DNA of 20,698 nt from a virus, in IMG/VR virus record IMGVR_UViG_3300046820_000672, positions 1-20,698 of that record, one strand, 5' to 3'. Below, piece by piece: positions 2 through 17,939 of this stretch; within the stretch, counting starts at the first letter, position 1, and each line of letters starts with the position of its first letter. The notes under the pieces were generated by a model. That model had not been told where the DNA came from. It saw only the letters and a list, made by a program, of their open reading frames with translations, and did no database searches. The translations under genes and the position numbers were made by a program.

Positions 2-1102
2 CGAAGTGTACGTCGACGCATGATGGCCGGAGAAACCTTACCTGAGTGCGAAGTATGTAATGATAAACTGTTGAATACTTCAGTTTACCGTAGCTATTTT
101 AACAGCCTGTTTGGGCATAAGTATTTACAAGCTATGGAACAAACTACTAGCGATGGCTACACTGAAATGAAGCCGGTTAGTTGGGACTATAGATTTAGTA
201 ACTTGTGTAATTTTAAATGCCGTATGTGCGGCGACATGTTGTCGAGTTCTTGGGAAAGTGAACAGCGACGGCACAATATGGTTGACTGGACTAATCCAAA
301 AAATAATTGGATGAAACCGGAGATCAAAAAACAAATTGAGCAATTTCAAGATACACAAGTAGAGCAAGAGTTTGCCCAAGCAGTTGAGGACCACAGAGTG
401 GAAGAAGTTTACTGGGTGGGCGGCGAACCGTTGATGTATGAACAGCACTGGCGATATATGAAACGGATTGTTGAATTAGGAGATGGGCCACGTGTATATG
501 CAAGATACAATACTAACCTTAGTCGTGTGGACTATCGTGGCGTTAATTTGTATCGTGATATCTTATCTAAGTTACGCGATTGGCAAGTCTGTGCGAGCCT
601 CGACGGAACAGGAAAAACTGGAGAATACATTAGAACAGGTCTCGACTTCGATCGTTTTGTTGAGAACTTCTCTCAAGGAGTATCGTACGCAACTCATCCT
701 AGACAGATGCGACTCGACTTCACCCTTACCCTGCCAGGAATGTTTGAAGTTGAACGTATTAGACGACTGTCCACAACCCACTCAGTACAAGTACTGGCGA
801 AAGTAATTTTTAGCTTTAGCCCGGACATAGTTATGTCTCCGCTGGCACTGCCCCAAGAATTATTACATCCTTGGATAGATGAAACGCTGTTAGAAATCCC
901 TGACGGATCATTGCACGACATACTTGTCCAGCTAAAAACTAGACCCACATTTCAAGAACAATGGCCTGATCAATGGCAATCAGGATTAAAGCGTGGCAAG
1001 TCTAGAATTTTAGAACTTGAGCGTATTCGCAATGATACATATACTATGCAAGACATACTTGCACAGCGTCCTGAAATTTTAACATGGTGGAATTCGATAT
1101 AA
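2..1102 (+). CDS. Twitch-type radical SAM protein, 5' partial
   Basis: The frame is open from the window edge, so the true start lies outside; the first in-frame ATG (20) need not be the start. The radical SAM signature CNFKCRMC (CxxxCxxC, about 206-229) should bind the 4Fe-4S cluster that cleaves S-adenosylmethionine. It is followed by a GGEP-type motif (VYWVGGEPLMYE), as expected for SAM binding. An upstream CxxC pair (CEVC) near the start fits the extra cysteines seen in twitch/SPASM-like members. Proteins of this kind are common in marine T4-like phages, but their substrates are unknown. It heads a + strand run with SGNH and carbamoyltransferase genes, which hints at a modification pathway. 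Its stop overlaps the next start (TAATG). The family call is secure; the substrate is not known. Confidence 0.85.
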   Translation, partial: RSVRRRMMAGETLPECEVCNDKLLNTSVYRSYFNSLFGHKYLQAMEQTTSDGYTEMKPVSWDYRFSNLCNFKCRMCGDMLSSSWESEQRRHNMVDWTNPKNNWMKPEIKKQIEQFQDTQVEQEFAQAVEDHRVEEVYWVGGEPLMYEQHWRYMKRIVELGDGPRVYARYNTNLSRVDYRGVNLYRDILSKLRDWQVCASLDGTGKTGEYIRTGLDFDRFVENFSQGVSYATHPRQMRLDFTLTLPGMFEVERIRRLSTTHSVQVLAKVIFSFSPDIVMSPLALPQELLHPWIDETLLEIPDGSLHDILVQLKTRPTFQEQWPDQWQSGLKRGKSRILELERIRNDTYTMQDILAQRPEILTWWNSI

Positions 1103-2903: not shown

Positions 2904-3538
2904 AAATACTGGCAGTAGGAGATAGCTTTACCTACGGGTATGAGATGCAAGACACTGGTGATGCTTGGCCTTGCGTGTTAGCACGTAAATTAAATGCCAC
3001 AGTAACTAACTTGGCTAAACCCGGCGGCGGCAACACACAAATAGTACGCAACATAGTAGAACATGCTGATCAATACGATTTAGTTGTAATTGGATGGACC
3101 AGCCCCGGAAGAATAGAGTTTTCGGATCAAATTGGTACATATGATATTTGGCCTGGCTGGAATGGAAAACAAAGAGTATCTCATAGAGTTGAAATAGCCA
3201 AGCAATTAACTATAGCACACAACGATCAATACCTATTTCGGCAGTTTCTAATAAACATTATTTTGGTACAATCTTTTTTAAACTTTAAAAACATTCCTTA
3301 TGTAATGGCCAGTACACAAGGCGAAAGTGAGCATTACTATTCTAGTTGCAAACAAAATAACGTTGACTTATTAAACAAAATAGATTATAATACATTTATA
3401 GAATGGCCAAAAAATGGCATGGCAGAATGGACGTTTGGCTGTAGGCAAGGTCCCGAGCATCACTTTTTAGAAGACGGGCATGAACGAGTTGCAGAAAAAT
3501 TTTATGAACATTATAGGCATATCCGCGGGATTTCATGA
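2900..3538 (+). CDS. SGNH/GDSL hydrolase family protein
   Basis: The 212-aa product opens with MKILAVGDSFTYG, a clear block I with Ser9 as predicted nucleophile. PGGGNTQ (about 41-47) fits the Gly and Asn oxyanion-hole blocks. The C-terminal HHFLEDGHERVAEKF supplies the Asp/His part of a triad (about 187-200), although DGH spacing differs from the textbook DxxH. No signal peptide is seen, so the protein should be cytoplasmic. SGNH domains often remove or transfer acyl groups on sugars or lipids. It lies between another SGNH-like gene and a carbamoyltransferase, so a role in editing a carbohydrate or small molecule is plausible but not shown. Its 3' end overlaps the next gene by 35 bases. Confidence 0.8.
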   Translation: MKILAVGDSFTYGYEMQDTGDAWPCVLARKLNATVTNLAKPGGGNTQIVRNIVEHADQYDLVVIGWTSPGRIEFSDQIGTYDIWPGWNGKQRVSHRVEIAKQLTIAHNDQYLFRQFLINIILVQSFLNFKNIPYVMASTQGESEHYYSSCKQNNVDLLNKIDYNTFIEWPKNGMAEWTFGCRQGPEHHFLEDGHERVAEKFYEHYRHIRGIS

Positions 3539-4985
3539 CGCGGCACTGAGCGTCATTGACTATCAAGGCAACATCAAGTTTGCTGGCCATAGCGAACGTT
3601 ACAGTAAAATTAAAAACGATCCTAATCTGCATCCTAGATTACTTGCCGAAGTAATTGGCTATCGTGTTGACCATGTGGCATACTACGAGCGTCCTTGGAA
3701 TAAACAGCTACGTCAGTGGTACAGTGGCCAAGGCATTGAGTGGAACAAGTTAACTGCTAGACAAGTATTGACTCAGCAAATAGGTGCAGAGTTTGCTAAA
3801 TTCCCTTTTAAGATCAGCACACATAATCATCATCTAAGCCATGCGGCCGCAGGCTTTCAAACCAGTCCCTATGAACGTGCTACTGTAGTTGTTATTGATG
3901 CCATTGGCGAATGGGATACTATCAGTATCTGGGGCGCCGAATATAAAAATGGTCGTGCTACGTACAAACGCTTATGGGGACAGAAATATCCGCATAGCCT
4001 TGGCCTATTCTATAGTGCAATGACACAGCGTGTAGGTCTAAAGCCTAATGAGGATGAATACATTCTAATGGGCATGAGTGCATATGGCGAACGTGGGTTT
4101 GGTGATTTAATGAAAATGAATCTCATTGACAATGAATGGGAAATTAAATTTAAAGAAAACTTGCATACTGGCCTAGAACAAAAGTATCTTAGTTACATTG
4201 GAGACATGGATATTGCCGCTGGGGCTCAGGAACTAGTGGAAAATTTGATATACAATGTTATTCGCCGTGCCCGGAACTTTAACTGGAGCAACAATCTGGT
4301 TTATATGGGCGGTGTTGCTTTAAACTGTAGTGCCAATAAGCATCTAGGAGACTACTTTGAGAATATTTGGATTATGCCTAATCCTGGTGACGCCGGTTCT
4401 AGCCTTGGTGCTGCCGCTTTGGCTTATGGGGGTAGAATTAACTGGACCAGTGCTTTTCTCGGGCATGATATACCTGGTGCTTATCCTGTTAATGACTTGC
4501 TTGATGAGTTACTTAGTCGGCAGATTGTGGGAGTGGCATCCGGACGAGCAGAGTTTGGTCCACGTGCATTCGGAAACCGTAGCCTCCTTGCAGACCCTAG
4601 AGGCGGCACGATTAAGGAACGAGTCAATGAGATTAAACGTCGCCAACAGTTTAGGCCGTTTGCTCCAGTAATACTAGAAGAACAAGCTAACGAATACTTT
4701 GAAATGCCCAAGGGATTTGAAACTAGTCGCTATATGCAGACTATTGCAAAATGCCGACATCCTGATCAATTCCCTGCTATTGTTCACTATGACGGAACCA
4801 GTCGTGTTCAAACTGTGCCCAAAGATGGGTCAGGTATTAGAGAATTGCTAGAGAAGTGGTATGTAATGACCGGCTGTCCTATGTTGCTTAACACTAGTTT
4901 AAACATCAAAGGTGAACCAATGGTCAATGATAGATCGGATGCAGATCGATTTGAATCACGCTACGGCGTTAAGGTTTGTAGTTAG
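3504..4985 (+). CDS. Carbamoyltransferase (NodU/CmcH family)
   Basis: I chose the ATG at 3504, giving MNIIGISAGFHDAALSV, which matches the family N-terminus; an in-frame ATG at 3480 adds eight unlikely residues. The protein is about 493 aa. The histidine-rich HNHHLSHAAAGF (about 107-118) and DAIGEWDT fit the Kae1-like N-terminal domain that makes carbamoyl-adenylate from carbamoyl phosphate and ATP. GGVALNCSAN, FGPRAFGNRSLLADPR and LLNTSLNIKGEP mark the remaining conserved core and C-terminal domain. These enzymes O-carbamoylate sugars or antibiotics. The short C-terminus after RFESRYGVKV looks complete for the phage form. It ends the + strand block and overlaps the opposing glycosyltransferase gene by 30 bp. 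The acceptor is unknown. Confidence 0.9.
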   Translation: MNIIGISAGFHDAALSVIDYQGNIKFAGHSERYSKIKNDPNLHPRLLAEVIGYRVDHVAYYERPWNKQLRQWYSGQGIEWNKLTARQVLTQQIGAEFAKFPFKISTHNHHLSHAAAGFQTSPYERATVVVIDAIGEWDTISIWGAEYKNGRATYKRLWGQKYPHSLGLFYSAMTQRVGLKPNEDEYILMGMSAYGERGFGDLMKMNLIDNEWEIKFKENLHTGLEQKYLSYIGDMDIAAGAQELVENLIYNVIRRARNFNWSNNLVYMGGVALNCSANKHLGDYFENIWIMPNPGDAGSSLGAAALAYGGRINWTSAFLGHDIPGAYPVNDLLDELLSRQIVGVASGRAEFGPRAFGNRSLLADPRGGTIKERVNEIKRRQQFRPFAPVILEEQANEYFEMPKGFETSRYMQTIAKCRHPDQFPAIVHYDGTSRVQTVPKDGSGIRELLEKWYVMTGCPMLLNTSLNIKGEPMVNDRSDADRFESRYGVKVCS

Positions 4986-6080
4986 TTCTTTCCAGCAATA
5001 GTCCAAGAACTCTTTGCTGTAGAAATGATTGTAGTTATACTCTAACACAGATTCCATATCCGCTAACATAGCAGTAAGCTCGTCTAAACTGTAGTTACAA
5101 ATTTCTTGTAGTAGTTTTCTAATTGCTTGTAGACGTAGCACGGGATCTTCAATTGAATCGTAACTTTCATCCCACCAACGATCGAAAGTTTTAAATCCGT
5201 AGCTTTTTAAGTATTCCAAGTTATGTGCAGATCCAGCTAATATAAAAGGCTGTCTGGCCACAACGGGTTTAAAGATCTTTTCAGTTAAATGTTGTTTGCG
5301 TGGCCAGAATTGTGTTTCGCTTACCACGTGAACAAAGCTAGACATCATAGCATCAATGGGACCCAGTACCATGCTTTGGTTAGGAATAGATCCTTGAACA
5401 AAGTCTATGCGTAAGTCGTCTTCTAGTTTATCCAAATTGGCTGTTGCTCGATGTACTATGCTAACAGGTATTTTAAAATCTGTGTAGCCAGACATTAAGT
5501 TTTCTCGATAGTGCCGATGGTTGTCTGGGCACACTCTACTAAAACTTACATAGCCGTCGTTAAGTAAGTTATGCTCAACTAATTCGCTGACCAACAATGT
5601 ACGATATATTCTATGATTGCTGGTAATACGATTCAGTGAAATGTATTTCTTTTTCAGTGTTCGTTGTTTTACTGGTACTAGTTGTGATTGATATTGATAA
5701 CCTCTATACCAGTCAGCTGCCGCAAAAGCGTGAAAGAAATAGTAACAAGATTTATAGCCGTGCTCATTTAAGATCTTATCCAGTTCTACGCTGTTGCGTT
5801 CACTGTGTAGTAAAATTTTAATTCCAGCGTAATTTTGGTTTATGTGATTTAGCAGATTTCGGTTGTAGCCCGTATCCAATGGCTCTTGATCGTGACAAAT
5901 TAATAACGGACTGGATCTGCGTAGGTCTCTGGCCCAACCAGTGGCTTGGTTGTTGCTCATAAATTCTATGTTTTCTGGTTGAGTTGATCCAAAAGGGTGT
6001 AGATATACCAGGCGAGGATCTGCTATAATAGTATGTGCAAGATGCCACACATAATCATAGTGGGTAGTTAAATTATACAT
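4956..6080 (-). CDS. Probable glycosyltransferase
   Basis: The 374-aa product has HDQEPLD near residue 63, SFVHVVSET near 248, then LTEKIFKPVVARQPFILAGS (about 265-284) and GFKTFDRWWDESYD (about 295-308). The TEKIFKP...QPFI core resembles the nucleotide-sugar donor site of GT-B transferases such as the fucosyltransferase/exostosin types. I recall the GFKTFD..WDESYD tail from phage proteins of this class. The donor and acceptor sugars cannot be named. Its start codon shares CATG with the divergent gene at 6079, so its promoter must lie inside that gene. Its 3' end overlaps the carbamoyltransferase by 30 bp. The family call is moderately sure. Confidence 0.6.
   Translation of the reverse strand: MYNLTTHYDYVWHLAHTIIADPRLVYLHPFGSTQPENIEFMSNNQATGWARDLRRSSPLLICHDQEPLDTGYNRNLLNHINQNYAGIKILLHSERNSVELDKILNEHGYKSCYYFFHAFAAADWYRGYQYQSQLVPVKQRTLKKKYISLNRITSNHRIYRTLLVSELVEHNLLNDGYVSFSRVCPDNHRHYRENLMSGYTDFKIPVSIVHRATANLDKLEDDLRIDFVQGSIPNQSMVLGPIDAMMSSFVHVVSETQFWPRKQHLTEKIFKPVVARQPFILAGSAHNLEYLKSYGFKTFDRWWDESYDSIEDPVLRLQAIRKLLQEICNYSLDELTAMLADMESVLEYNYNHFYSKEFLDYCWKELTTNLNAVA
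6021..6029 (+). promoter_or_regulatory. Candidate extended -10 promoter
   Basis: TGCTATAAT (TG, one base, then a perfect TATAAT) lies 50 bases upstream of the 6079 start, inside the opposing glycosyltransferase gene. An extended -10 can work without a -35 box, and no good -35 is present. The + strand gene at 6079 has no upstream non-coding DNA, so some internal promoter is needed. The match may still be chance. Confidence 0.35.
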
Positions 6081-7737
6081 GTTTGACGTATTTTATTATG
6101 GGCCCAAGCCCAACTTATTCGAATTTGAGAAACCTGCTACCAGTTTAGAGGATGCTAACCAACAGGCTCGTACTAGATACTACTGGTATATTTATGGGGG
6201 TAATGATTACACAAACTTCAACTTTGACTTTGTACCTGCTCCTTGGGAGGCAGACTTTACTCATGTGTGGCCTAGCCAGTGGCAAAAGAATAGCGGAACT
6301 ATACTAGCACCCAAGGACGTACAAGAACACAAGTGGCACTGGCTAGAAGATCCTGTGGTGCCAAGAACGCATATAGCACCTATCTATTACATGGATATGT
6401 ACAATGCCGAAAGTACACTGGGATACCAAGATCTATTAGAACGATATGGCTTTGACGTAAAACGCACTCGCTATGTTGACAGTCATTTAAATGTATTCAA
6501 ACGTATTATAGCACAAGCCACTACAGAATATGTTTGGATAGTATCCAGTGTATGTGATTACACTAACTTTGACTTTACCTGGCACCCAGGACAGTGGCAA
6601 GAGCAAATGATTCACTGCTTTCCTTCTGGTACAGAAAAGCGTGGAGATACCTTTTTACTACATGTAGAATCATTTAAACAGCAAATGGTTGAGCTAGAAC
6701 TATTGGATTGGTTTAATGTTATTAACTATTGCGAAGATCAGCATGTAGTTAGATACCAAATACCCGTACATGTATATGAGTCAGATAATCTAGTTAAAGA
6801 AATACTAAATTATGATTTTACTGGACCGTATGCTATGTTCACAAATCAACCAGACATGCGTTTTATTGCAAGTCCTTGTTTGTGGACAGAAAAGGATCGT
6901 ACAGTAGAACGTTGTAGTATCAGCGGAGCTACATGTATAGTACCTCGTGATATTAAGACGCATTTGCGTACACAAATCTACGATTATCCGCACCTTAGCA
7001 CGTCAGTTTACCAGGTTAACGAGTACTACAGGAACAAAGATTTCCCGGGGTTGGACATAGTATACATCAGCAACGGCGAACCCGACGAACAAAAGTGGTA
7101 TGAACATACCTGTTACCAAACCAACAGCGATGTAAAATGGGTACGTGGTATAAATGGACGTGTAGCCGCTTATCAAGAAGCCGCACGTCAAAGTACTACA
7201 CCTTGGTTCTTTGCTGTGTTTGCTAAACTAGAAGTTGTGGGCGGAAACTTCCCCTGGTATGATTGGATGCCCGATTACTGGCAAGAACCCAAGCATTATA
7301 TCTTTAATGCACGTAATCCTGTAAACGGATTAGAGTATGGGCACATGGGTGTGATTGCTTATAACAAGAATCTAGTGTTAGCTAATAACAATCCTGGCAT
7401 TGACTTTACACTAAGCCAACCACATGAGTCAGTGCCTATACTCAGTGCTATTGCACACTACAATCAAGATCCCTGGACCACGTGGCGCACTGCTTTCCGT
7501 GAAGTTCTTAAATTGCGATTGTTTATGGATCAACAGCCAACACTAGAAACCGAATATAGACTTAAAGCCTGGTTTAAACACACAGATGCCAAGTTTGGAG
7601 AATGGTCAGTGCGTGGTGCTCAAGATGCACAAGACTATTATGATCTAGTCAGCGGTAACTACAACGACCTAATGAAAAGTTTTGAGTGGGATTGGTTACG
7701 CAACCATTTTAATCGCCTGCATAATATTCAACAATAG
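6079..7737 (+). CDS. Three-segment repeat protein, possibly degenerate GT-A-like
   Basis: The 552-aa product contains three related segments, at about residues 34-80, 151-205 and 385-430. Segments 1 and 2 share DYTNFnF followed by a P-x-x-W/Q and a W/H-rich strand (DYTNFNFDFVPAPW and DYTNFDFTWHPGQW). Segment 3 is more diverged (FPWYDWMPDYWQEPKHYIF). Segments 2 and 3 are each preceded by a helix ending in a Thr/Thr-aromatic strand (QATTEYVWIV, QSTTPWFFAV). Before segment 3, VYISNGEPDEQKW and a basic helix recall the nucleotide-binding half of family-2 glycosyltransferases, but a clear DxD is missing. It lies beside a probable glycosyltransferase. I do not recognise a named family. Its 3' end overlaps the DegT gene by 29 bp. 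Confidence 0.7.
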   Translation: MFDVFYYGPKPNLFEFEKPATSLEDANQQARTRYYWYIYGGNDYTNFNFDFVPAPWEADFTHVWPSQWQKNSGTILAPKDVQEHKWHWLEDPVVPRTHIAPIYYMDMYNAESTLGYQDLLERYGFDVKRTRYVDSHLNVFKRIIAQATTEYVWIVSSVCDYTNFDFTWHPGQWQEQMIHCFPSGTEKRGDTFLLHVESFKQQMVELELLDWFNVINYCEDQHVVRYQIPVHVYESDNLVKEILNYDFTGPYAMFTNQPDMRFIASPCLWTEKDRTVERCSISGATCIVPRDIKTHLRTQIYDYPHLSTSVYQVNEYYRNKDFPGLDIVYISNGEPDEQKWYEHTCYQTNSDVKWVRGINGRVAAYQEAARQSTTPWFFAVFAKLEVVGGNFPWYDWMPDYWQEPKHYIFNARNPVNGLEYGHMGVIAYNKNLVLANNNPGIDFTLSQPHESVPILSAIAHYNQDPWTTWRTAFREVLKLRLFMDQQPTLETEYRLKAWFKHTDAKFGEWSVRGAQDAQDYYDLVSGNYNDLMKSFEWDWLRNHFNRLHNIQQ

Positions 7738-8824
7738 TTTCAGCTACTGTTTCGACTTCGGCGTCAGTCATTTCAGGGTATATAGGCAAGCTCAGAGATT
7801 CTTTGCTGTGCATGGTGCCTAGTCTAAATACATCTCTAGCATAGTTATAATAGTCATATGCAAGTTCGTGCTCAAACAACGGAACTTCATAATGCACTTT
7901 AGTTTGTATTCCACGTTTGGCCAAGAATGTTTGTAAGTTATGACGATCATTTAGTCTAATAACATATTTGTGCCATGCATGATCTACACCTTTGTTTGGT
8001 AGTATAGGATCAACATAACTAAGCAGGTGCTCTGTGTAAAAGTCGGCAATCTCTGCTCTGCGTCTTTGCCACTCATCAAAATACTTTAACTTGACTAGCA
8101 TATGAGCACAATCTACTTCGCTCATTTTACTGTTGGTTCCAGGTGTAACGTGGTTACTGATCTTGCCGTTGTCGCGTAGGTTATAACAGATACTAGCGAT
8201 TTCTTCATTGTCTGTGAGTATCATTCCGCCTGACCCATAGTTGGGTAAGTTCTTGGTAGGGTCAAAACTTAACACACTTACATCGCCTAGCTTGCCGCTA
8301 GGAATACCGTTATAACTAGCACCAAATGACTGTGCGGCATCTTCAATAATTTTGATATCGCCGTTGGGGTTAAAAAAGTTTACTACTGTTCTAAACTTGT
8401 CGTAGTCTAGTATATTGCCAAACAAGTTTACATACATGATGCCTTTGATATCTGCTTCAGTTAAACCGAAACTTAACATTTCGAGATCCATTAATGCTTG
8501 CTCGTCTATGTCGCAGAACACAGGAGTATTGCCGGCCATAATTACACTATTTAATGTGGCCACAAAACTGGTAGTGGGAATTAAAACTTTGCCATCTATG
8601 CCGGTGGCACCCTGGGCAAATACAAGAGCCTGTGTACAGGAGTTTACTGCAATAGCGTATTGTCTATGGCAACGTCTTGCTATTTGTCTTTCAAAATAAT
8701 TAACGTATTGGCCGTCAAGAACCTGACCGGAAGCAAGCACTCGGTCAGTTGCATCTAGCAATTCTTGTTTAAGATTTTGGTACTGTCTTTGAAGACCAGT
8801 AAATGCTATTTCGGAACCATTCAT
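7709..8824 (-). CDS. DegT/DnrJ/EryC1/StrS-type PLP aminotransferase
   Basis: The 371-aa product matches the family in length and motifs: an N-terminal IAFTGLQRQYQNLKQE, then NSCTQAL (phosphate-binding), EDAAQSFGA (Asp162 contacts the PLP ring nitrogen) and SFDPTKNLPNYGSGG, where Lys191 should form the PLP Schiff base. These enzymes transfer an amino group from glutamate or glutamine to a keto-sugar nucleotide. The start at 8824 gives the expected family N-terminus, even though it lies 56 bases inside the upstream epimerase gene. The pairing with an epimerase/dehydratase suggests amino-sugar nucleotide synthesis. Which sugar is made cannot be read from the sequence. Confidence 0.92.
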   Translation of the reverse strand: MNGSEIAFTGLQRQYQNLKQELLDATDRVLASGQVLDGQYVNYFERQIARRCHRQYAIAVNSCTQALVFAQGATGIDGKVLIPTTSFVATLNSVIMAGNTPVFCDIDEQALMDLEMLSFGLTEADIKGIMYVNLFGNILDYDKFRTVVNFFNPNGDIKIIEDAAQSFGASYNGIPSGKLGDVSVLSFDPTKNLPNYGSGGMILTDNEEIASICYNLRDNGKISNHVTPGTNSKMSEVDCAHMLVKLKYFDEWQRRRAEIADFYTEHLLSYVDPILPNKGVDHAWHKYVIRLNDRHNLQTFLAKRGIQTKVHYEVPLFEHELAYDYYNYARDVFRLGTMHSKESLSLPIYPEMTDAEVETVAETIVEYYAGD

Positions 8825-9749
8825 AATATCTCTTAAAGCCTTCGTCTACGTCAACTTGTGGATTGTAACCAAAATCTCTACGTGCGGCATCAATGTTTAA
8901 TGCACCACGCGATGGGAAATCTGCATCTTTATCGCGAACCTGTACAGAACCTGAGCCTGCTATACTGACGGCTAAATTAGCGGCGTCTAACAAGCTCCAA
9001 CTGTGCGATTTTGTAATGTTATAGGTCTTATTTCGTGCATTTTCACTAAGCGTGGCGCCTACAATACCTGCGGCAGCATCTTCGACGTATGTAAAGTCCA
9101 ATGTTTCAGTAGCACCGTTGACCTTAAGAGTTTCGCCACGCATAGCACTTAGCATGAACTTACTAACCACTCGATCTTCTACATCGTATTCACCGTAGAC
9201 AGCACTAGGACGAATAATAACATGATCGAAACACCCTCGACGAGTGTAATCTTTAACAAGATGTTCGCCCATTAGTTTCATAATACCATACTGCCCCTGT
9301 GGCGTACATACAGCATCTTCGGTTACTTGATCGTTAAAGTCTCCGTATACCATACTTGAACTAATGTAAACAAACTTTGGAATTTTATATTGTTTAGTTA
9401 GTTCAAGTAAGTTAACCAGTGCAGTGCTCATAACCTCACTGCCCCAGACCGGATTCTGTCCAACAACTTTTTGCCTAGGAAAGCTGGCTAGGTGTATAAC
9501 AGCATCTGCATCAAAGCTAAAATTTGAAAAGAAATCTTTTACTTTGTTGTGCTCTCTCAGATCGATATGATGTACAGCGGCACGAATACGCGATCTTCGT
9601 TCGCTGTTTAAATATTCAAGTTCTTGCTGGTTTATAAAACCGTAGTCTGTTACGTTGTCGAGTATAAAACACTCGTGGCCTTGTGCTTCTAATAGACGCA
9701 CTACGTTGTGTCCGATAAAGCCGGCACCGCCTGTTACTAAAAACTTCAA
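8769..9749 (-). CDS. NAD-dependent epimerase/dehydratase (extended SDR)
   Basis: The 326-aa product has a Rossmann N-terminus with TGGAGFIG (residues 6-13) for NAD(P), VIHLASFPR, a catalytic SSSMVYG serine region (about 120-126) and the YxxxK pair Tyr144/Lys148 in QYGIMK. DFTYVEDAAAGIVGA is typical of nucleotide-sugar epimerases and dehydratases. It probably acts on an NDP-sugar that the downstream DegT aminotransferase then aminates. Its start overlaps the thyA stop (ATGA), and its 3' end overlaps the DegT gene by 56 bp, so the three genes are likely one transcript. Epimerase and 4,6-dehydratase cannot be told apart safely. Confidence 0.92.
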   Translation of the reverse strand: MKFLVTGGAGFIGHNVVRLLEAQGHECFILDNVTDYGFINQQELEYLNSERRSRIRAAVHHIDLREHNKVKDFFSNFSFDADAVIHLASFPRQKVVGQNPVWGSEVMSTALVNLLELTKQYKIPKFVYISSSMVYGDFNDQVTEDAVCTPQGQYGIMKLMGEHLVKDYTRRGCFDHVIIRPSAVYGEYDVEDRVVSKFMLSAMRGETLKVNGATETLDFTYVEDAAAGIVGATLSENARNKTYNITKSHSWSLLDAANLAVSIAGSGSVQVRDKDADFPSRGALNIDAARRDFGYNPQVDVDEGFKRYYEWFRNSIYWSSKTVPKS

Positions 9750-10645
9750 ACTGCCATCTCCGCTTTGATTGCACCGTGGGATTGATAATTGTCCAAGCGA
9801 ATATCTGCCATGGTAAATTGTGTAATATCTTTAATGTCTGGATTAAGCCAAAGAGTTGGCTCAGGTAATGGTTCACGAGATAATTGTTCTTTTACCTGTT
9901 CAACATGATTCAAGTAGATGTGTGCATCGCCGAGTACATGAACGAACTCACCGACCTGAAGGCCGCACACTTGAGCTATCATGGCCGTTAGCAGGCTGTA
10001 GCTAGCGATATTAAATGGGACTCCGAGAAACATGTCGCAACTTCTTTGATACATTTGACAGCTTAGTCGGCCGTCTTTGCTTACATAAAACTGAGCTAAG
10101 ATATGACACGGTGGGAGTGCCATCTGGTCTAAATCAGATACATTCCATGCTGATAATATATGTCTTCGTCCATGCGGGTCTTGTTTAATTCCGTTGATAA
10201 GATTTAATAGTTGATCAACTTCATGCTTGTCGCAAGCTACCCTGGTTCCGCCTAAATGTGCAGGACCCATATCTTTTTGTTCTACATACTGATTCCAATG
10301 GCGCCACTGAACTCCGTATACACGGCCTAGGTCTCCCTCAAATTTAGCCTTTGGCTTCCAGTAAGAAGCCAGGGCATTTGGAGTCCAGATAGTTGTTTTA
10401 CCTTCTGCGGTGCCATGTGTTAATTCAGCAAGTCTACGTTCATTCCCGGAGCCCTCGATCATCCACAGTAGTTCACCTACACAGGCCTTCCATGCTAGCT
10501 TTTTAGTTGTTACTGCGGGAAATGACGTAGATAAATCATATCGTTGTTGCATACCAAAGTAACTAATGGTACCAACTCCGGTTCGATCATCTTTTACTTG
10601 GCCTTGTTCAAGTACTTGGCGTAATGCGTTTAAATAAGTTTTCAT
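9746..10645 (-). CDS. thyA: Thymidylate synthase
   Basis: This 299-aa protein converts dUMP to dTMP using methylene-tetrahydrofolate. Visible landmarks are DDRTGVGT with Arg21, the Arg160-Arg161 pair in DPHGRRH, catalytic Cys180 in LPPCHILAQF, and QRSCDMFLGVPFNIAS. The Asn in PFNIAS matches the residue that selects dUMP; an Asp there would suggest a dCMP hydroxymethylase. The C-terminus ends in MAV, as expected for the loop that closes over the active site. It is longer than E. coli ThyA (264 aa) because of an insertion around residues 120-145. Its start overlaps folA by 38 bases, a dTMP-supply pair as in T4 (frd-td). No intron is seen. Confidence 0.97.
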   Translation of the reverse strand: MKTYLNALRQVLEQGQVKDDRTGVGTISYFGMQQRYDLSTSFPAVTTKKLAWKACVGELLWMIEGSGNERRLAELTHGTAEGKTTIWTPNALASYWKPKAKFEGDLGRVYGVQWRHWNQYVEQKDMGPAHLGGTRVACDKHEVDQLLNLINGIKQDPHGRRHILSAWNVSDLDQMALPPCHILAQFYVSKDGRLSCQMYQRSCDMFLGVPFNIASYSLLTAMIAQVCGLQVGEFVHVLGDAHIYLNHVEQVKEQLSREPLPEPTLWLNPDIKDITQFTMADIRLDNYQSHGAIKAEMAV

Positions 10646-11114
10646 ATTTTACTAGTGTAAAGCTACAATCTTTAGCAACATCGGCACGTACCGGTTGCCA
10701 CCCAATTAAGAATGTTTTTAAGTTTAGCTTAGTATCTACTTTATACGAACCTTTGAAGTGTGTCAAGTATAAATTGTCAAATATACCAGAACATTGTTCC
10801 AATAAATTAGATCCGCCAATAACCCAAATAATTTTATCTGGATGTTGCTTTTCTAGTTTAAGCAAGCCTTCGTTTACATCGCCTGATATGTTTACAGCAT
10901 GTTCCAATGGCTTGTTGCTGAATACATAGGTAGTACGTCCGGGCAAGGGTTTAGGCATTTTAGGGTCTTGCCATGTTTTGCGACCCATAACAACCACATG
11001 ACCTTCTGTGAGTCGTTTAAAGTTAGCCATATCTTCGGCGTTATGAGGCCAAGGCAATGTGCCATTGAAACCCATACCGCCGTAGTGGTCTACGGCGAAT
11101 ATAGCATTTATCAT
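10608..11114 (-). CDS. folA: Dihydrofolate reductase
   Basis: The 168-aa product regenerates tetrahydrofolate with NADPH, which the ThyA reaction consumes. GGMGFNGTLPW is the N-terminal substrate loop; AEDMANFKRLT carries the acidic active-site residue (Asp28). VVMGRKTW and VIGGSNLLE are the cofactor-binding motifs. The length is typical of bacterial DHFRs. The start overlaps the upstream gene by ATGA, and the last 38 bases lie inside thyA, so the C-terminal tail FKRITPST is encoded by the shared stretch. Co-expression with thyA by translational coupling is likely. Confidence 0.96.
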   Translation of the reverse strand: MINAIFAVDHYGGMGFNGTLPWPHNAEDMANFKRLTEGHVVVMGRKTWQDPKMPKPLPGRTTYVFSNKPLEHAVNISGDVNEGLLKLEKQHPDKIIWVIGGSNLLEQCSGIFDNLYLTHFKGSYKVDTKLNLKTFLIGWQPVRADVAKDCSFTLVKYENLFKRITPST

Positions 11115-13945: not shown

Positions 13946-14159
13946 TTTTTAATTGCCCTATTTTTGCCTTACGACATTCTTCTTTAGCCCAAACTGGAAT
14001 GTCTGGACTAACTTCTGCAATACTACAATCAATTCTAACAGTACGCGGACTAGGATTTAGTACATCCGGAATCCGGTTGCCTAGTATAACTAGTCCAATA
14101 GACAAGCCTACTGCAACACCGCACAAAACTACATACCCGCACACTTGCAAAAATTTCAT
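13935..14159 (-). CDS. Small membrane protein (74 aa)
   Basis: An N-terminal hydrophobic stretch (GYVVLCGVAVGLSIGLVIL, about 8-26) is a single membrane anchor or an uncleaved signal. The rest is a soluble tail with two cysteines: TVRIDCSIAEVSPDIPVWAK and EECRKAK. The DCSIAEVSPDIP pattern is one I recall from marine phages. If exported, the two cysteines could form a disulfide; this is inference. Its ATG overlaps the stop of the metallopeptidase gene (ATGA), so the two are probably translated together. It may act at the host membrane, but no lysis motif is visible. Confidence 0.7.
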   Translation of the reverse strand: MKFLQVCGYVVLCGVAVGLSIGLVILGNRIPDVLNPSPRTVRIDCSIAEVSPDIPVWAKEECRKAKIGQLKNGN

Positions 14160-15391
14160 CGTTTCTTAGCCTCTTCTTCGTAGTGGGCCCAAATACCCCA
14201 TGGTGGTTCGCAACCTGGGTTGCCTTTAATGATCCATACTGTATCACAGTAGTTCTCATCGCCCCACTCTCCACATGGCATACCGTCGGTAAACATGATG
14301 AACTTTTTAGGTTCAATTCCATTAGCTTTCATGTATTCCCAGTTAGCCATAAAGTCCGTGCCACCGCCGCCCATTGGCTCGTACTCTTCAATACTACGCA
14401 TGTTATCGCTATTAAAAGTTTGATCGTTATAGATCTCTGTATCAAAGCACCATAGACGAATATTGTACTCGTCATATGATTCCATAATGCCCTTAATCTC
14501 ACTCAAGAATGCCTTGCTGTCTTGACTGGTAATGGACCCAGACTGGTCAATTGACACAGCCACATCAATGGTTTCACCGGGCTTCATACCGGGCAAAATA
14601 GCATCCATGTGCCAACCTCTACGGCTAGGACGTGCCCATGTAAAGTCACTCTTAATAGTACTTTGGATCTGTTGCTCTAGCAGTTCTTTCCAACCAATCT
14701 GCGGTTGTGTAAGATCTTTAACAAGACGCTTAACACCTGCGGGCAAGTTACCTGCACCTACAGCCTGTGCGGCATTGAGTACAGCTTCTTTGATCTCATC
14801 GCGGATCTGACGTTTTTCTTCTTCGCTGAGTTTAGGGCGACCTTTGCCATCTTTATCGCCCTCGCCCTCACCTTCGCCATCTAAATGTTCGTCTAACAGT
14901 TGTTTTGCTAACTGCTCAATATTGATTTTGTCAGCGTTTTTCATCAAGTCGTCGTAGACTTCTTCGCCACTCATGCCACGATATTTCGGATCGTACAGCA
15001 TACCGCAGACAGTAATCTTCTCGCCAATACGTTGATCAATCAAATCTGCATTAACGCAAAAGTCAACGGCAATGTTCCAGATTTTAGGATCGCGATCACC
15101 ACGTCGGCCCATGTGGTCGTAAACAGCATGGAGTACTTCGTGACCGACAAGGAATTCCACTTGCTTGAGTGGCATCTTGTTAACGAATTCAGAATTGTAA
15201 TAAAAACGACGTCCGTCGGTAGCGGCAGTAGGCAACCAGTCGTCGCCATTCATTAGTTGCATGCGAGTAGCGAGGTTACCAAAGAAAGGAGCACGAAGCA
15301 AAAGTCCAATTCGGGCAGTGATTAGTTTTTCACGTGCCGCGGCATCTACTTTGGGATCTGTCTTGGGTTTAGTTTGTTCAATTACAGTCAT
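14156..15391 (-). CDS. Putative metallopeptidase with VWA-like domain (DUF2201-type)
   Basis: The N-terminal domain has HEVLHAVYDH (His84, Glu85, His88), a zinc-metallopeptidase signature, with conserved AVDFCVNADL after it. A Gly/Glu/Asp-rich linker (about 170-185) leads to a C-terminal VWA-like domain with a complete MIDAS: DQSGS (282-286), GGGGTD (about 341-346) and FTDG (367-370). This layout matches the DUF2201 pair: putative metallopeptidase then VWA-like. In bacteria these proteins usually work with a MoxR-type AAA+ ATPase, and one is encoded just upstream. A sigma70-like promoter (15417-15445) and the ribosome site AAAAGGAG drive the gene. Its target is unknown. Confidence 0.85.
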   Translation of the reverse strand: MTVIEQTKPKTDPKVDAAAREKLITARIGLLLRAPFFGNLATRMQLMNGDDWLPTAATDGRRFYYNSEFVNKMPLKQVEFLVGHEVLHAVYDHMGRRGDRDPKIWNIAVDFCVNADLIDQRIGEKITVCGMLYDPKYRGMSGEEVYDDLMKNADKINIEQLAKQLLDEHLDGEGEGEGDKDGKGRPKLSEEEKRQIRDEIKEAVLNAAQAVGAGNLPAGVKRLVKDLTQPQIGWKELLEQQIQSTIKSDFTWARPSRRGWHMDAILPGMKPGETIDVAVSIDQSGSITSQDSKAFLSEIKGIMESYDEYNIRLWCFDTEIYNDQTFNSDNMRSIEEYEPMGGGGTDFMANWEYMKANGIEPKKFIMFTDGMPCGEWGDENYCDTVWIIKGNPGCEPPWGIWAHYEEEAKKR

Positions 15392-15416
15392 TGCATACTC
15401 CTTTTACTATTCTTAT

Positions 15417-15445
15417 ATTATACATTTAATTGAATTATTGGTCAA
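15417..15445 (-). promoter_or_regulatory. Sigma70-like promoter before the metallopeptidase gene
   Basis: On the - strand a TTGACC -35 box (15440-15445) and a TATAAT -10 box (15417-15422) are separated by exactly 17 bases. The spacer AATAATTCAATTAAATG shares its core with three other promoters on this strand. It lies in the 61-base gap after the 99-aa gene. This is a strong host-RNA-polymerase promoter by sequence. Confidence 0.8.
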
Positions 15446-15452
15446 GTTTGGC

Positions 15453-15752
15453 CTAATTGCGTTTCCACTGGAATATAAAAGCGGATAATGTAGCATCGTC
15501 TTTAAAGTACAGCCTTTTATGGCCGAACTCAGTTTGCCAAGCCCAAGTGGTAGGTAACTCAATTGGTAGCACACTAAGAACAGCATGATCGTCTATGGCA
15601 AATCGCAATTCAATACCTGGACCAAATGATTCCCAACACCATGCTCGCCAAGTGTGGAATAGTTGTACATTACCTAATCTAAGATTAGGCTCAACATGAT
15701 ACTTGTATTTTTCGTTACCAGTATGTCGTTTGTCAAGTTCGGTTATTTTCAT
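15453..15752 (-). CDS. Small unknown phage protein (99 aa)
   Basis: Notable segments are VQLFHTWRAWCWESFGPGIE in the centre and FGHKRLYFKDDATLSAFIFQ near the end; it is rich in Trp, His and Phe. I recall HTWRAWCWE.FGPG in marine phage hypotheticals, without a function. The ATG lies directly after a terminator-like T-run, and no Shine-Dalgarno is present, so how the gene is expressed is unclear. It lies between the ATPase and the metallopeptidase genes, and the promoter of the latter follows its stop. No later in-frame Met offers a better start. Confidence 0.65.
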   Translation of the reverse strand: MKITELDKRHTGNEKYKYHVEPNLRLGNVQLFHTWRAWCWESFGPGIELRFAIDDHAVLSVLPIELPTTWAWQTEFGHKRLYFKDDATLSAFIFQWKRN

Positions 15753-15791
15753 AATAAAAAGGAGGACTTACGGTATTGCTACCAGCCTCCT
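15753..15791 (-). terminator. Intrinsic terminator-like hairpin after the AAA+ gene
   Basis: On the - strand AGGAGG and CCTCCT (15786-15791 and 15760-15765 on the + strand) form a stem, with an inner GGTA/TACC pairing around a GCAA loop. TTTTTATT follows directly (15753-15760). It begins 20 bases after the stop of the ATPase fragments, where a rho-independent terminator would be expected. The stem is imperfect, with bulges. Confidence 0.6.
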
Positions 15792-15811
15792 GTCCGTGAC
15801 TAGCGAACTCT

Positions 15812-16279
15812 TTACTTACCGCTTGCCGCGATAATGTACTTGCCAAAGCGGCTGTGGAATTCGTCAAAGCTCTTCATCTTACCTGGAACCATTGGCAGGT
15901 TGTAAGTAGTAAGAGCAACACGAGCACCCATAACAACCAGCTCAGTGGTAAAGTTATCCATCATAAAGCGAAGGAAATTGTCTGCTTGGGCGTGCCACTC
16001 AGAGATCTTCTCTTTGCCTAGCTTCTTGTACTGCTCTTGAAGCTCGTAGCACATGCTGATAGTAAGCGAGTACATGGCAGAGATTTCTTTAACCTTGAGC
16101 TCTTTTACTTCACCTTTCAACACTTTGCTAGGGTCAGGCATTTGGCTGGCAACCTTGCGGTGTGCCATAAACTTAACAGCAAGGCCCTCACCAACAGTAC
16201 CAGAAATCAAGTCTGTAAGCTCTGCATCAGTAGCATCTTCGTCATTCAAGAACTGCGAAACCAAAGGCTCGGCTTGCAC
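15812..16279 (-). CDS. C-terminal fragment of a MoxR-like AAA+ ATPase (frameshifted)
   Basis: This 155-aa ORF starts at a GTG with no Shine-Dalgarno and overlaps the N-terminal ORF by 38 bases in the +1 frame. From VSQFLNDEDATDAELTDL onward it reads as the natural continuation of the AAA+ protein: the lid and a conserved C-terminal region (KEISAMYSLTISMCYELQEQ). The first eight residues (from GTG to PLV) are probably not native. In relatives I recall, a segment like ATPRSWEF joins RAF to VSQ; here it is absent. The fragment therefore probably arises from a short deletion of about 23 bases. It is unlikely to function alone. A rejoined protein would be about 366 aa. Confidence 0.75.
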   Translation of the reverse strand: MQAEPLVSQFLNDEDATDAELTDLISGTVGEGLAVKFMAHRKVASQMPDPSKVLKGEVKELKVKEISAMYSLTISMCYELQEQYKKLGKEKISEWHAQADNFLRFMMDNFTTELVVMGARVALTTYNLPMVPGKMKSFDEFHSRFGKYIIAASGK

Positions 16280-16889
16280 TAACAGGATTGAACTCCATCA
16301 AGTCTTGCTTGCTAAAGCTCAAGAAACCAACCACATCCTGGTGGATTTGATTGTTAACAGCCCACTGGAACCAAGACTCAAAGTCTGCACGAACTTCTAA
16401 GTGAACAAAGCGGTTAGCCAGCGGGCTAGGCATACGATATGTAACACCTTTGTCGCTTTCGCGATTACCAGCGGCAACGATTACCACATTGTCGGGCAGT
16501 TTATACTTGCCTACACGACGGTTAAGAATCAGCTGATAACCAGCGGCCTGGACAGCGGGCGGTGCTGAGTTCATTTCGTCCAAGAACAGCACCACAACAG
16601 GATACTGGCTTGCAAATTCCTCATCGGGCAAGTCTACAGGAGGTGCCCAGTCCATAACTTCTTTGTTCTTGTTAAAAAACGGAATACCACGAATGTCTGT
16701 GGGCTCACATTGGCCCAGACGCAAGTCAATCATATAGCCACCGAGATCTTCGGTAACGCCAGCAATCAATTCAGATTTGCCAATGCCCGGAGGACCCCAC
16801 AGGAACACAGGACGTTTGGCTTTAAATGCTCGCAGAACACGGCTACGGGCTTCACTTGGGGTAACACTACGGTTTTCAGTCACGGACAT
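16242..16889 (-). CDS. MoxR-like AAA+ ATPase, N-terminal fragment (frameshifted)
   Basis: This 215-aa ORF has Walker A (WGPPGIGKS, 31-39), Walker B (VVVLFLDEMN, about 98-107), the sensor-1 Asn in AAGN (139-142) and a predicted arginine finger in SPLANRF (about 155-161), so the ATPase core is complete. It ends early: after NPVSASRAF the frame runs GFAVLE and stops, while the family sequence continues in the +1 frame. The sensor-2 arginine region (ATPR-type) is missing from both frames. The start has a good site (AAAGGAGTATTTT) and a sigma70-like promoter (16919-16947). Its expected partner is the metallopeptidase/VWA protein downstream. Confidence 0.9.
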   Translation of the reverse strand: MSVTENRSVTPSEARSRVLRAFKAKRPVFLWGPPGIGKSELIAGVTEDLGGYMIDLRLGQCEPTDIRGIPFFNKNKEVMDWAPPVDLPDEEFASQYPVVVLFLDEMNSAPPAVQAAGYQLILNRRVGKYKLPDNVVIVAAGNRESDKGVTYRMPSPLANRFVHLEVRADFESWFQWAVNNQIHQDVVGFLSFSKQDLMEFNPVSASRAFGFAVLE

Positions 16890-16918
16890 AAAATACTCCT
16901 TTAGTTGATAGTCTTTGT

Positions 16919-16947
16919 ATTGTACAATTAATTGAATTAACAGTCAA
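16919..16947 (-). promoter_or_regulatory. Sigma70-like promoter before the AAA+ gene
   Basis: A TTGACT -35 box (16942-16947) and a TACAAT -10 box (16919-16924) have a 17-base spacer, GTTAATTCAATTAATTG. The spacer core TAATTCAATTAA is shared with the promoter before the metallopeptidase gene. It lies between the stop of the 69-aa gene and the ATPase start. Confidence 0.75.
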
Positions 16948-16948
16948 G

Positions 16949-17158
16949 TTAAGCCAATTCAGCAACAATTTCGTCGTTGTCGATTAGTACTTGAATACTA
17001 GGTTCGGACCTCCAGCGGAATTGTACAGGTTGGCCCAGTTTAACATTATATTGCACTTTACCACCGTACTTGACACGGCTAGATTCTACAGTGCCATGGA
17101 CTTGTTGGCCCAAGTAATTTGCAACAATAGTTTTACCGTCTTTGATCCAATTGCTCAT
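16949..17158 (-). CDS. Small conserved phage protein, probably beta-barrel-like (69 aa)
   Basis: The sequence alternates short strands and turns: NYLGQQVHGTVESSRVKYGG, then KVQYNVKLGQPVQFRWRSEP and a Val/Leu/Ile end. The SSRVKYGG and RWRSEP motifs match a small protein I recall from T4-like marine phages. An SH3-like fold is possible, but this is inferred from composition. It has its own promoter (17189-17217) and an AAGG ribosome site, so it is probably an early gene. Its function is unknown. Confidence 0.75.
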   Translation of the reverse strand: MSNWIKDGKTIVANYLGQQVHGTVESSRVKYGGKVQYNVKLGQPVQFRWRSEPSIQVLIDNDEIVAELA

Positions 17159-17188
17159 TGCTGGCCCTTATTAGTTACTATACTTTGT

Positions 17189-17217
17189 ATTATAGATTAA
17201 ATGGATTTAACGAGCAA
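17189..17217 (-). promoter_or_regulatory. Sigma70-like promoter before the 69-aa gene
   Basis: TTGCTC (17212-17217) and TATAAT (17189-17194) are separated by 17 bases, GTTAAATCCATTTAATC. From AAATCCATTTAATC through the -10 box it is identical to the promoter before the 85-aa gene. The -35 box is weaker than in the other three. Confidence 0.7.
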
Positions 17218-17221
17218 CCGT

Positions 17222-17479
17222 TTAGTCCCATGACTTTTTGTCGCCGTGTAGCTCGTTCCAAGCATAACCTGCTAGGTATTCTGCACGTTCTTCGTCAGTT
17301 AAATTAGTTACTTTTTCACCGTTGTAACTGCCCTGCGGGAACCAATGTGGATCTTGTCCACGACTGTAGTAACTGTCTGCTGATCCACGATCAAACAAAC
17401 TACCGTGGCGATCACGTTCAAACTGTGGGCCCTTGAGGGCTCGCACAACCTGTTCTTTTTCAGTTATTTGGGAATACAT
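17222..17479 (-). CDS. Small conserved protein (85 aa)
   Basis: A short acidic and basic protein with the distinctive run DRHGSLFDRGSADSYYSRGQ followed by PHWFPQGSYNG and, near the end, EYLAGYAWNELHGDKKSWD. The FDRGSADSYY.R...PH.. pattern and the terminal GY..NE..GD.K.W match a family I recall from phages and enterobacterial plasmids, without a firm function. It has GGAG at good spacing (AAAAATGGAGCTAAT before the ATG) and its own promoter (17509-17537). Confidence 0.75.
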   Translation of the reverse strand: MYSQITEKEQVVRALKGPQFERDRHGSLFDRGSADSYYSRGQDPHWFPQGSYNGEKVTNLTDEERAEYLAGYAWNELHGDKKSWD

Positions 17480-17508
17480 ATTAGCTCCATTTTTATACTA
17501 TAACTGCT

Positions 17509-17537
17509 ATTATAGATTAAATGGATTTTTGGATCAA
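17509..17537 (-). promoter_or_regulatory. Sigma70-like promoter before the 85-aa gene
   Basis: TTGATC (17532-17537) and TATAAT (17509-17514) have a 17-base spacer, CAAAAATCCATTTAATC. It is nearly a duplicate of the promoter at 17189-17217 and lies in the 76-base gap after the DUF6165 gene. Confidence 0.75.
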
Positions 17538-17555
17538 CCAAAAATTCTGTTGTTT

Positions 17556-17939
17556 TTATGCAACGGTTTTGTGGCTTTTTTCTTCTATGATTGTGCTACC
17601 GCATAGCACATTGATTTCGCGTTTAATGCTGGCACGTTGATCGTTTTTAAGATATACTTGTCGAGCTTGTTCGATAAAGAATTCGTCAAACTGTTGTGTA
17701 CGCTCACACTCTCTTTTGGCATCTTCGATTTGCCAAAGTTCGTTGTTAATGGTTCTGAGCTTTTTTCTTTGTACCGTGATATTTGGTAATTCGAGATTAT
17801 TTAGGATTTTATTCAGCTCATCAAGTTCGCGATGAACATTTTCACGTTTGGTATTATCTGTGATAATGTCTAGTTTAATTTCTAAGATTGTGATCTTGTC
17901 TACAAGTTCGCCAACGCTGATAGGTGCTAGTACGATCAT
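17556..17939 (-). CDS. DUF6165 family protein (127 aa)
   Basis: The N-terminal ISVGELVDKITILEIKL (about 7-23) and the C-terminal FIEQARQVYLKNDQRASIKR region (88-107), followed by GSTIIEEKS, match the DUF6165 family closely; the middle is a long helical hairpin with NNELWQIEDAKRECE. In bacteria these proteins tend to be encoded in or near surface-glycan loci, but their activity is not known. That fits the sugar genes elsewhere in the window. The start overlaps the stop of the upstream gene by ATGA. Confidence 0.85.
   Translation of the reverse strand: MIVLAPISVGELVDKITILEIKLDIITDNTKRENVHRELDELNKILNNLELPNITVQRKKLRTINNELWQIEDAKRECERTQQFDEFFIEQARQVYLKNDQRASIKREINVLCGSTIIEEKSHKTVA

Follow-up and report, generated by a model that had tools for sequence, protein, structure and literature searches.

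Four promoters in a 20.7-kb virus fragment (IMGVR_UViG_3300046820_000672; "the window" is the whole of this stretch of DNA) are probably copies of one cassette, a host-RNA-polymerase (sigma70-type) promoter unit of a T4-like phage lineage. As we read the sequences, the cassette would extend from the −35 box through the ribosome-binding site, with one cassette ahead of each small gene giving that gene its own, probably early, transcript; in some copies of the lineage a predicted terminator-like stem-loop would lie just before the promoter or overlap it. The repeated cassettes would offer short stretches of homology for the swapping of genes, and recombination among the copies, together with selection for a strong promoter, would keep them alike within a lineage, the expected outcome being a lineage-specific consensus in the spacer, a stretch of the promoter normally held unimportant.

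Four window promoters share one spacer motif

The four minus-strand sites with exact 17-bp spacers reported by a first-pass annotation of the window are all present. P1 (15445-15417; TTGACC-AATAATTCAATTAAATG-TATAAT) lies 25 bp before the start codon of a DUF2201 metallopeptidase/VWA-like gene (phrog_1314; 14156..15391), and P2 (16947-16919; TTGACT-GTTAATTCAATTAATTG-TACAAT) stands ahead of a MoxR-like AAA ATPase gene (phrog_1297; 16242..16889), the frame of which is broken near 16270. P3 (17217-17189; TTGCTC-GTTAAATCCATTTAATC-TATAAT), with a weak −35 box, and P4 (17537-17509; TTGATC-CAAAAATCCATTTAATC-TATAAT) precede open reading frames of 69 aa (16949..17158) and 85 aa (17222..17479), both without a family match. 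All of these genes lie on the minus strand. Each promoter sits shortly downstream of the stop codon of the preceding gene, with 25–30 bp from the end of its −10 box to the start codon, and transcription is predicted to start, on the same strand, near 15410 (P1), 16912 (P2), 17182 (P3) and 17502 (P4).

The annotation had sorted the spacers into two related pairs; both prove to be variants of a single ungapped motif, nnWAAWTCMATTWAATS. The mean of the six pairwise spacer identities is 11.8 of 17 positions (ungapped), a value never reached in 100,000 trials with shuffled spacers (mean 5.8, maximum 10.0). Generic sigma70-like sites, by comparison, show no excess in this half of the window (25 found, 25.0 expected from shuffles), and the −35 box of P3 (TTGCTC) falls below listing strength in the generic promoter scan: P1–P4 stand out by their shared spacer only, not as generic promoter matches. 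The search pattern suggested with the annotation was too narrow, recovering P2 only, while a relaxed form finds all four, as well as four sites in each of the sibling contigs G001, G002 and G003, some of them outside the cluster.

The promoter class recurs in T4-like relatives

A Megablast search with the window gave no close relative in a set of 50,697 records of known phages; related viral contigs were gathered on the basis of its VWA-like, 85-aa and MoxR-like proteins. Six large relatives carry gp23, of the T4 major capsid family, and the group is therefore taken to be T4-like; the gene is not in the window, which is a fragment, and several of the T4-like relatives are of jumbo size. Many relatives retain a promoter ahead of the VWA-like gene, with a spacer that varies by clade.

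Relatives of 320–335 kb hold about 20 or more copies each, every copy ahead of an unrelated gene and nearly always with a 17-bp spacer, which favours the earlier suggestion that the window promoters represent a phage promoter class. Sites upstream of genes with 16-, 17- and 18-bp spacers number 1, 29 and 3 in the 320-kb genome G031 and 1, 25 and 1 in the 335-kb genome G030 (selection thresholds vary slightly between analyses, and site totals differ accordingly). In both genomes the sites are clustered, each small gene having a promoter to itself, an arrangement of host-type promoters that would fit early timing. Within G030 or within G031 the genes behind the promoters have no mutual homology, and the promoter repeats therefore do not stem from gene duplication. 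T4 late promoters were tried as a candidate and rejected, TATAAATA being no commoner in the relatives than a permuted control. A cultured relative by its VWA-like protein, PA5oct, has 17 TTGAC-N17 sites with no evident common spacer.

Spacers and 5′ UTRs are alike within genomes and differ between them

The consensus is particular to each lineage: tgg-TTGACc-aatAAaTccc.aTtTGc-TATAAT-Acttgtatagtaatta in G031, TTGACA-ATAAaT.gg..tgg.tg-TATAAT in G030, and different again in G029, where the spacer ends in taaAaTGa.TG. Eight gene pairs behind promoters are homologous between G030 and G031, and across these pairs the orthologous promoters agree at 5.3 of 17 spacer positions, as against 8.3 and 9.9 of 17 when the same promoters are compared with non-homologous ones in their own genome (exact swap test, 4/256). 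With a one-base shift allowed the values become 7.6 for orthologs and 8.8 and 10.1 within genomes, a narrowing due to a one-base offset of the AAWT core between the two genomes. Since orthologs match less well than non-homologous promoters of the same genome, spacer evolution within a genome is concerted. In a set of four large genomes, 70% of promoters can be assigned to the correct genome by their spacer alone, against a mean of 25% and a maximum of 40% with permuted labels.

The same holds for the 5′ UTR, and to a much lesser degree, in three of the four genomes, for the stretch upstream of the −35 box. In G030 (L241, L248, L249) two near-identical 5′ UTR types, agaatcttagacagttagataacggag and atacacatacactgagaaaacggag, recur after spacers that vary, a pattern suggestive of separate exchange of UTR and spacer. 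An AAWT core at spacer position 3–4 recurs in several genomes (55/83 sites); it is not universal, being nearly absent from G017, G027 and G029, and the form is absent from T4, KVP40 and Atu_ph07. If our reading is right, spacers constitute a lineage signature that could help to find genes of the class and to connect fragments from metagenomes. The spacer variants found in nature, which differ little in −35 box, −10 box and spacing, would provide a test of how the spacer affects RNA polymerase or a phage regulator.

A gene module replaced between promoter copies

Comparison with the sibling L083, the one case of exchange examined in detail, places the edges of a replacement at or near the promoter copies. 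The window aligns with L083 at 91.7% identity from 18600 to 17151 and at 92.5% from 16947 to 14001, with no homology between 17151 and 16947. The intervening module (16948..17150, minus strand), between P3 and P2, has no counterpart in L083, which carries about 0.57 kb of other sequence in its place. Homology with L083 restarts at 16947, the first T of the P2 −35 box; the other edge of the module falls a short way into the gene behind P3, and in a further sibling, L104, homology is lost at the P3 −10 box. By these alignments, a gene module is replaced between promoter copies P3 and P2. Promoter copies, if we are right, would be entry points for new genes.

Stem-loops at and within the promoters

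Terminator-like hairpins accompany 17 of 58 class promoters, compared with 2.9 in shuffles (maximum 8), and often end just before the −35 box or run into it; their activity as terminators is a prediction from their form. Folding energy around the promoters shows a mild rise near the −35 box only, the terminator-specific count being the clearer measure. Among the four window copies, P4 alone has a stem-loop nearby, an imperfect one upstream at 17547..17566 (minus strand; ACCGTTG-CATAAAAA-CAACAG region, with the inverted repeat scored on the plus strand). It is weaker than the structure at the same place in L083, a full terminator-like hairpin.

In a distant clade (L032–L081; for example L032:3639-3668) a hairpin lies within the 17-bp spacer of the VWA-like gene's promoter. 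It is perfect and GC-rich, and the ACA of TTGACA forms part of the stem. All eight pairs form in each of 14 distinct sequences, and four pairs have changed on both sides (16 cells; 0/500 shuffles); the evidence here is this covariation and not the presence of the hairpin, because the sequences were chosen for showing it. Terminator activity of this hairpin is doubtful because its stem is followed by TTATAATATA, with no T-run.

Alternative explanations for the shared spacer

The main rival account takes the spacer to be an operator, in which a lineage-specific and probably phage-encoded dimeric regulator binds a dyad between the −35 and −10 boxes and times the promoters, or shuts them off, together. 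We think this unlikely. In its favour, candidate dyads are present (TTAATT-C-AATTAA and AAAT-CC-ATTT), and their arms are in excess over composition shuffles for the clades of the window, L011 and L009 (0/500 each), with a weak excess in L005/L006, G031 and G029, in a test for which several spacer sets were compiled by hand. Such symmetry is not expected from cassette recombination alone, and we count it against the cassettes. A consensus peculiar to each lineage would also follow from an operator, because site and regulator co-evolve, as would spacers that agree within a genome yet differ between genomes at orthologous genes. Against this, G030 and G017 show no dyad excess, the dyad thus not being a feature of every lineage; the homogeneity reaches into the 5′ UTR; and the sites of one clade are not independent. 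PA5oct likewise gives no dyad excess, as an approximate control in which the set includes the sixth base of the −35 box and one entry is longer by a further base. That every lineage in this T4-like group has its own spacer-reading regulator, co-evolved with its site, has in our estimation a low probability. If it were true, the spacer would be a lineage-specific address through which a set of small genes is controlled together, and the GC-rich hairpin spacers would in addition act at the RNA level, as an element of the transcript from upstream.

A preference of the host RNA polymerase for A/T-rich sequence after the −35 box and TG before the −10 box, with lineages tuned to their hosts and with neither regulator nor cassette, seems to us improbable. 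The AAWT core, found in several genomes, fits such a preference, as does the TGC or TGT that is common ahead of the −10 box in some lineages, and the shared core may be explicable in this way; the lineage differences are not, for polymerase preference leaves the near-identity of the other spacer positions and of the 5′ UTR within one genome unexplained, does not account for orthologous genes having a different consensus in different genomes, and meets lineages in which AAWT is nearly missing. As for a chance likeness of AT-rich, promoter-like sites, it agrees with the lack of any excess of generic sites in the window, but spacer identity beyond all the shuffles and the recurrence of the class in relatives, with numerous copies in G030 and G031, refute it, and its probability is negligible. 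Recombining cassettes can, by contrast, explain much without a regulator, given the homogeneous 5′ UTR, the promoter-bounded exchange and the lineages lacking a dyad. Cassette recombination and a spacer operator may also both be true.

Relation to known phage repeats

Short repeats before many unrelated genes, differing between phage clusters, are familiar from mycobacteriophages, in which start-associated sequences are ribosome-site repeats and "stoperators" are repressor-binding sites; the repeat described here is, by contrast, a whole promoter. T4 early promoters resemble the class in being host sigma70-type and in belonging to a T4-like phage, but TTGAC-N17-TAYAMT is rare in T4 and KVP40 (2 and 3 sites). 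The closest description we consulted is that of PeSLs (promoter early stem-loops), composite promoter-terminator cassettes of T4-type phages that are reported to mediate gene-module exchange in T4-like phages (PMC4503421, citing Arbiol 2010 and Comeau 2014). As that paper presents them, PeSLs share with our promoters a T4-like setting, a host-type promoter that recurs at the boundaries of genes, and module exchange at the repeats, of which P3–P2 against L083 is the one case here; the stem-loop may be a further common element, with 17 of 58 class promoters having one but P4 alone among the four window copies. Relative to the same description, the present class differs in having its own spacer and 5′ UTR consensus in each lineage, with concerted spacers; in most window copies being without a stem-loop; and in one clade carrying a hairpin inside the spacer.

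Genes of the window

The phrog_1314 family carries the label HNH endonuclease, and in some phage records homing endonuclease. The Pfam match of the window gene is to a putative metallopeptidase with a VWA-like domain, and the HNH label looks like an annotation error. The broken frame of the MoxR-like gene (window 16242-16279, minus strand) traces to a 23-bp deletion relative to L118, a sibling of 99% identity that has an unbroken frame of 366 aa; the break is either a strain variant or an assembly error. Elsewhere in the window (20-1102 and 3480-11114), radical SAM, carbamoyltransferase, DegT aminotransferase and epimerase genes are clustered, along with genes for thymidylate synthase and dihydrofolate reductase.
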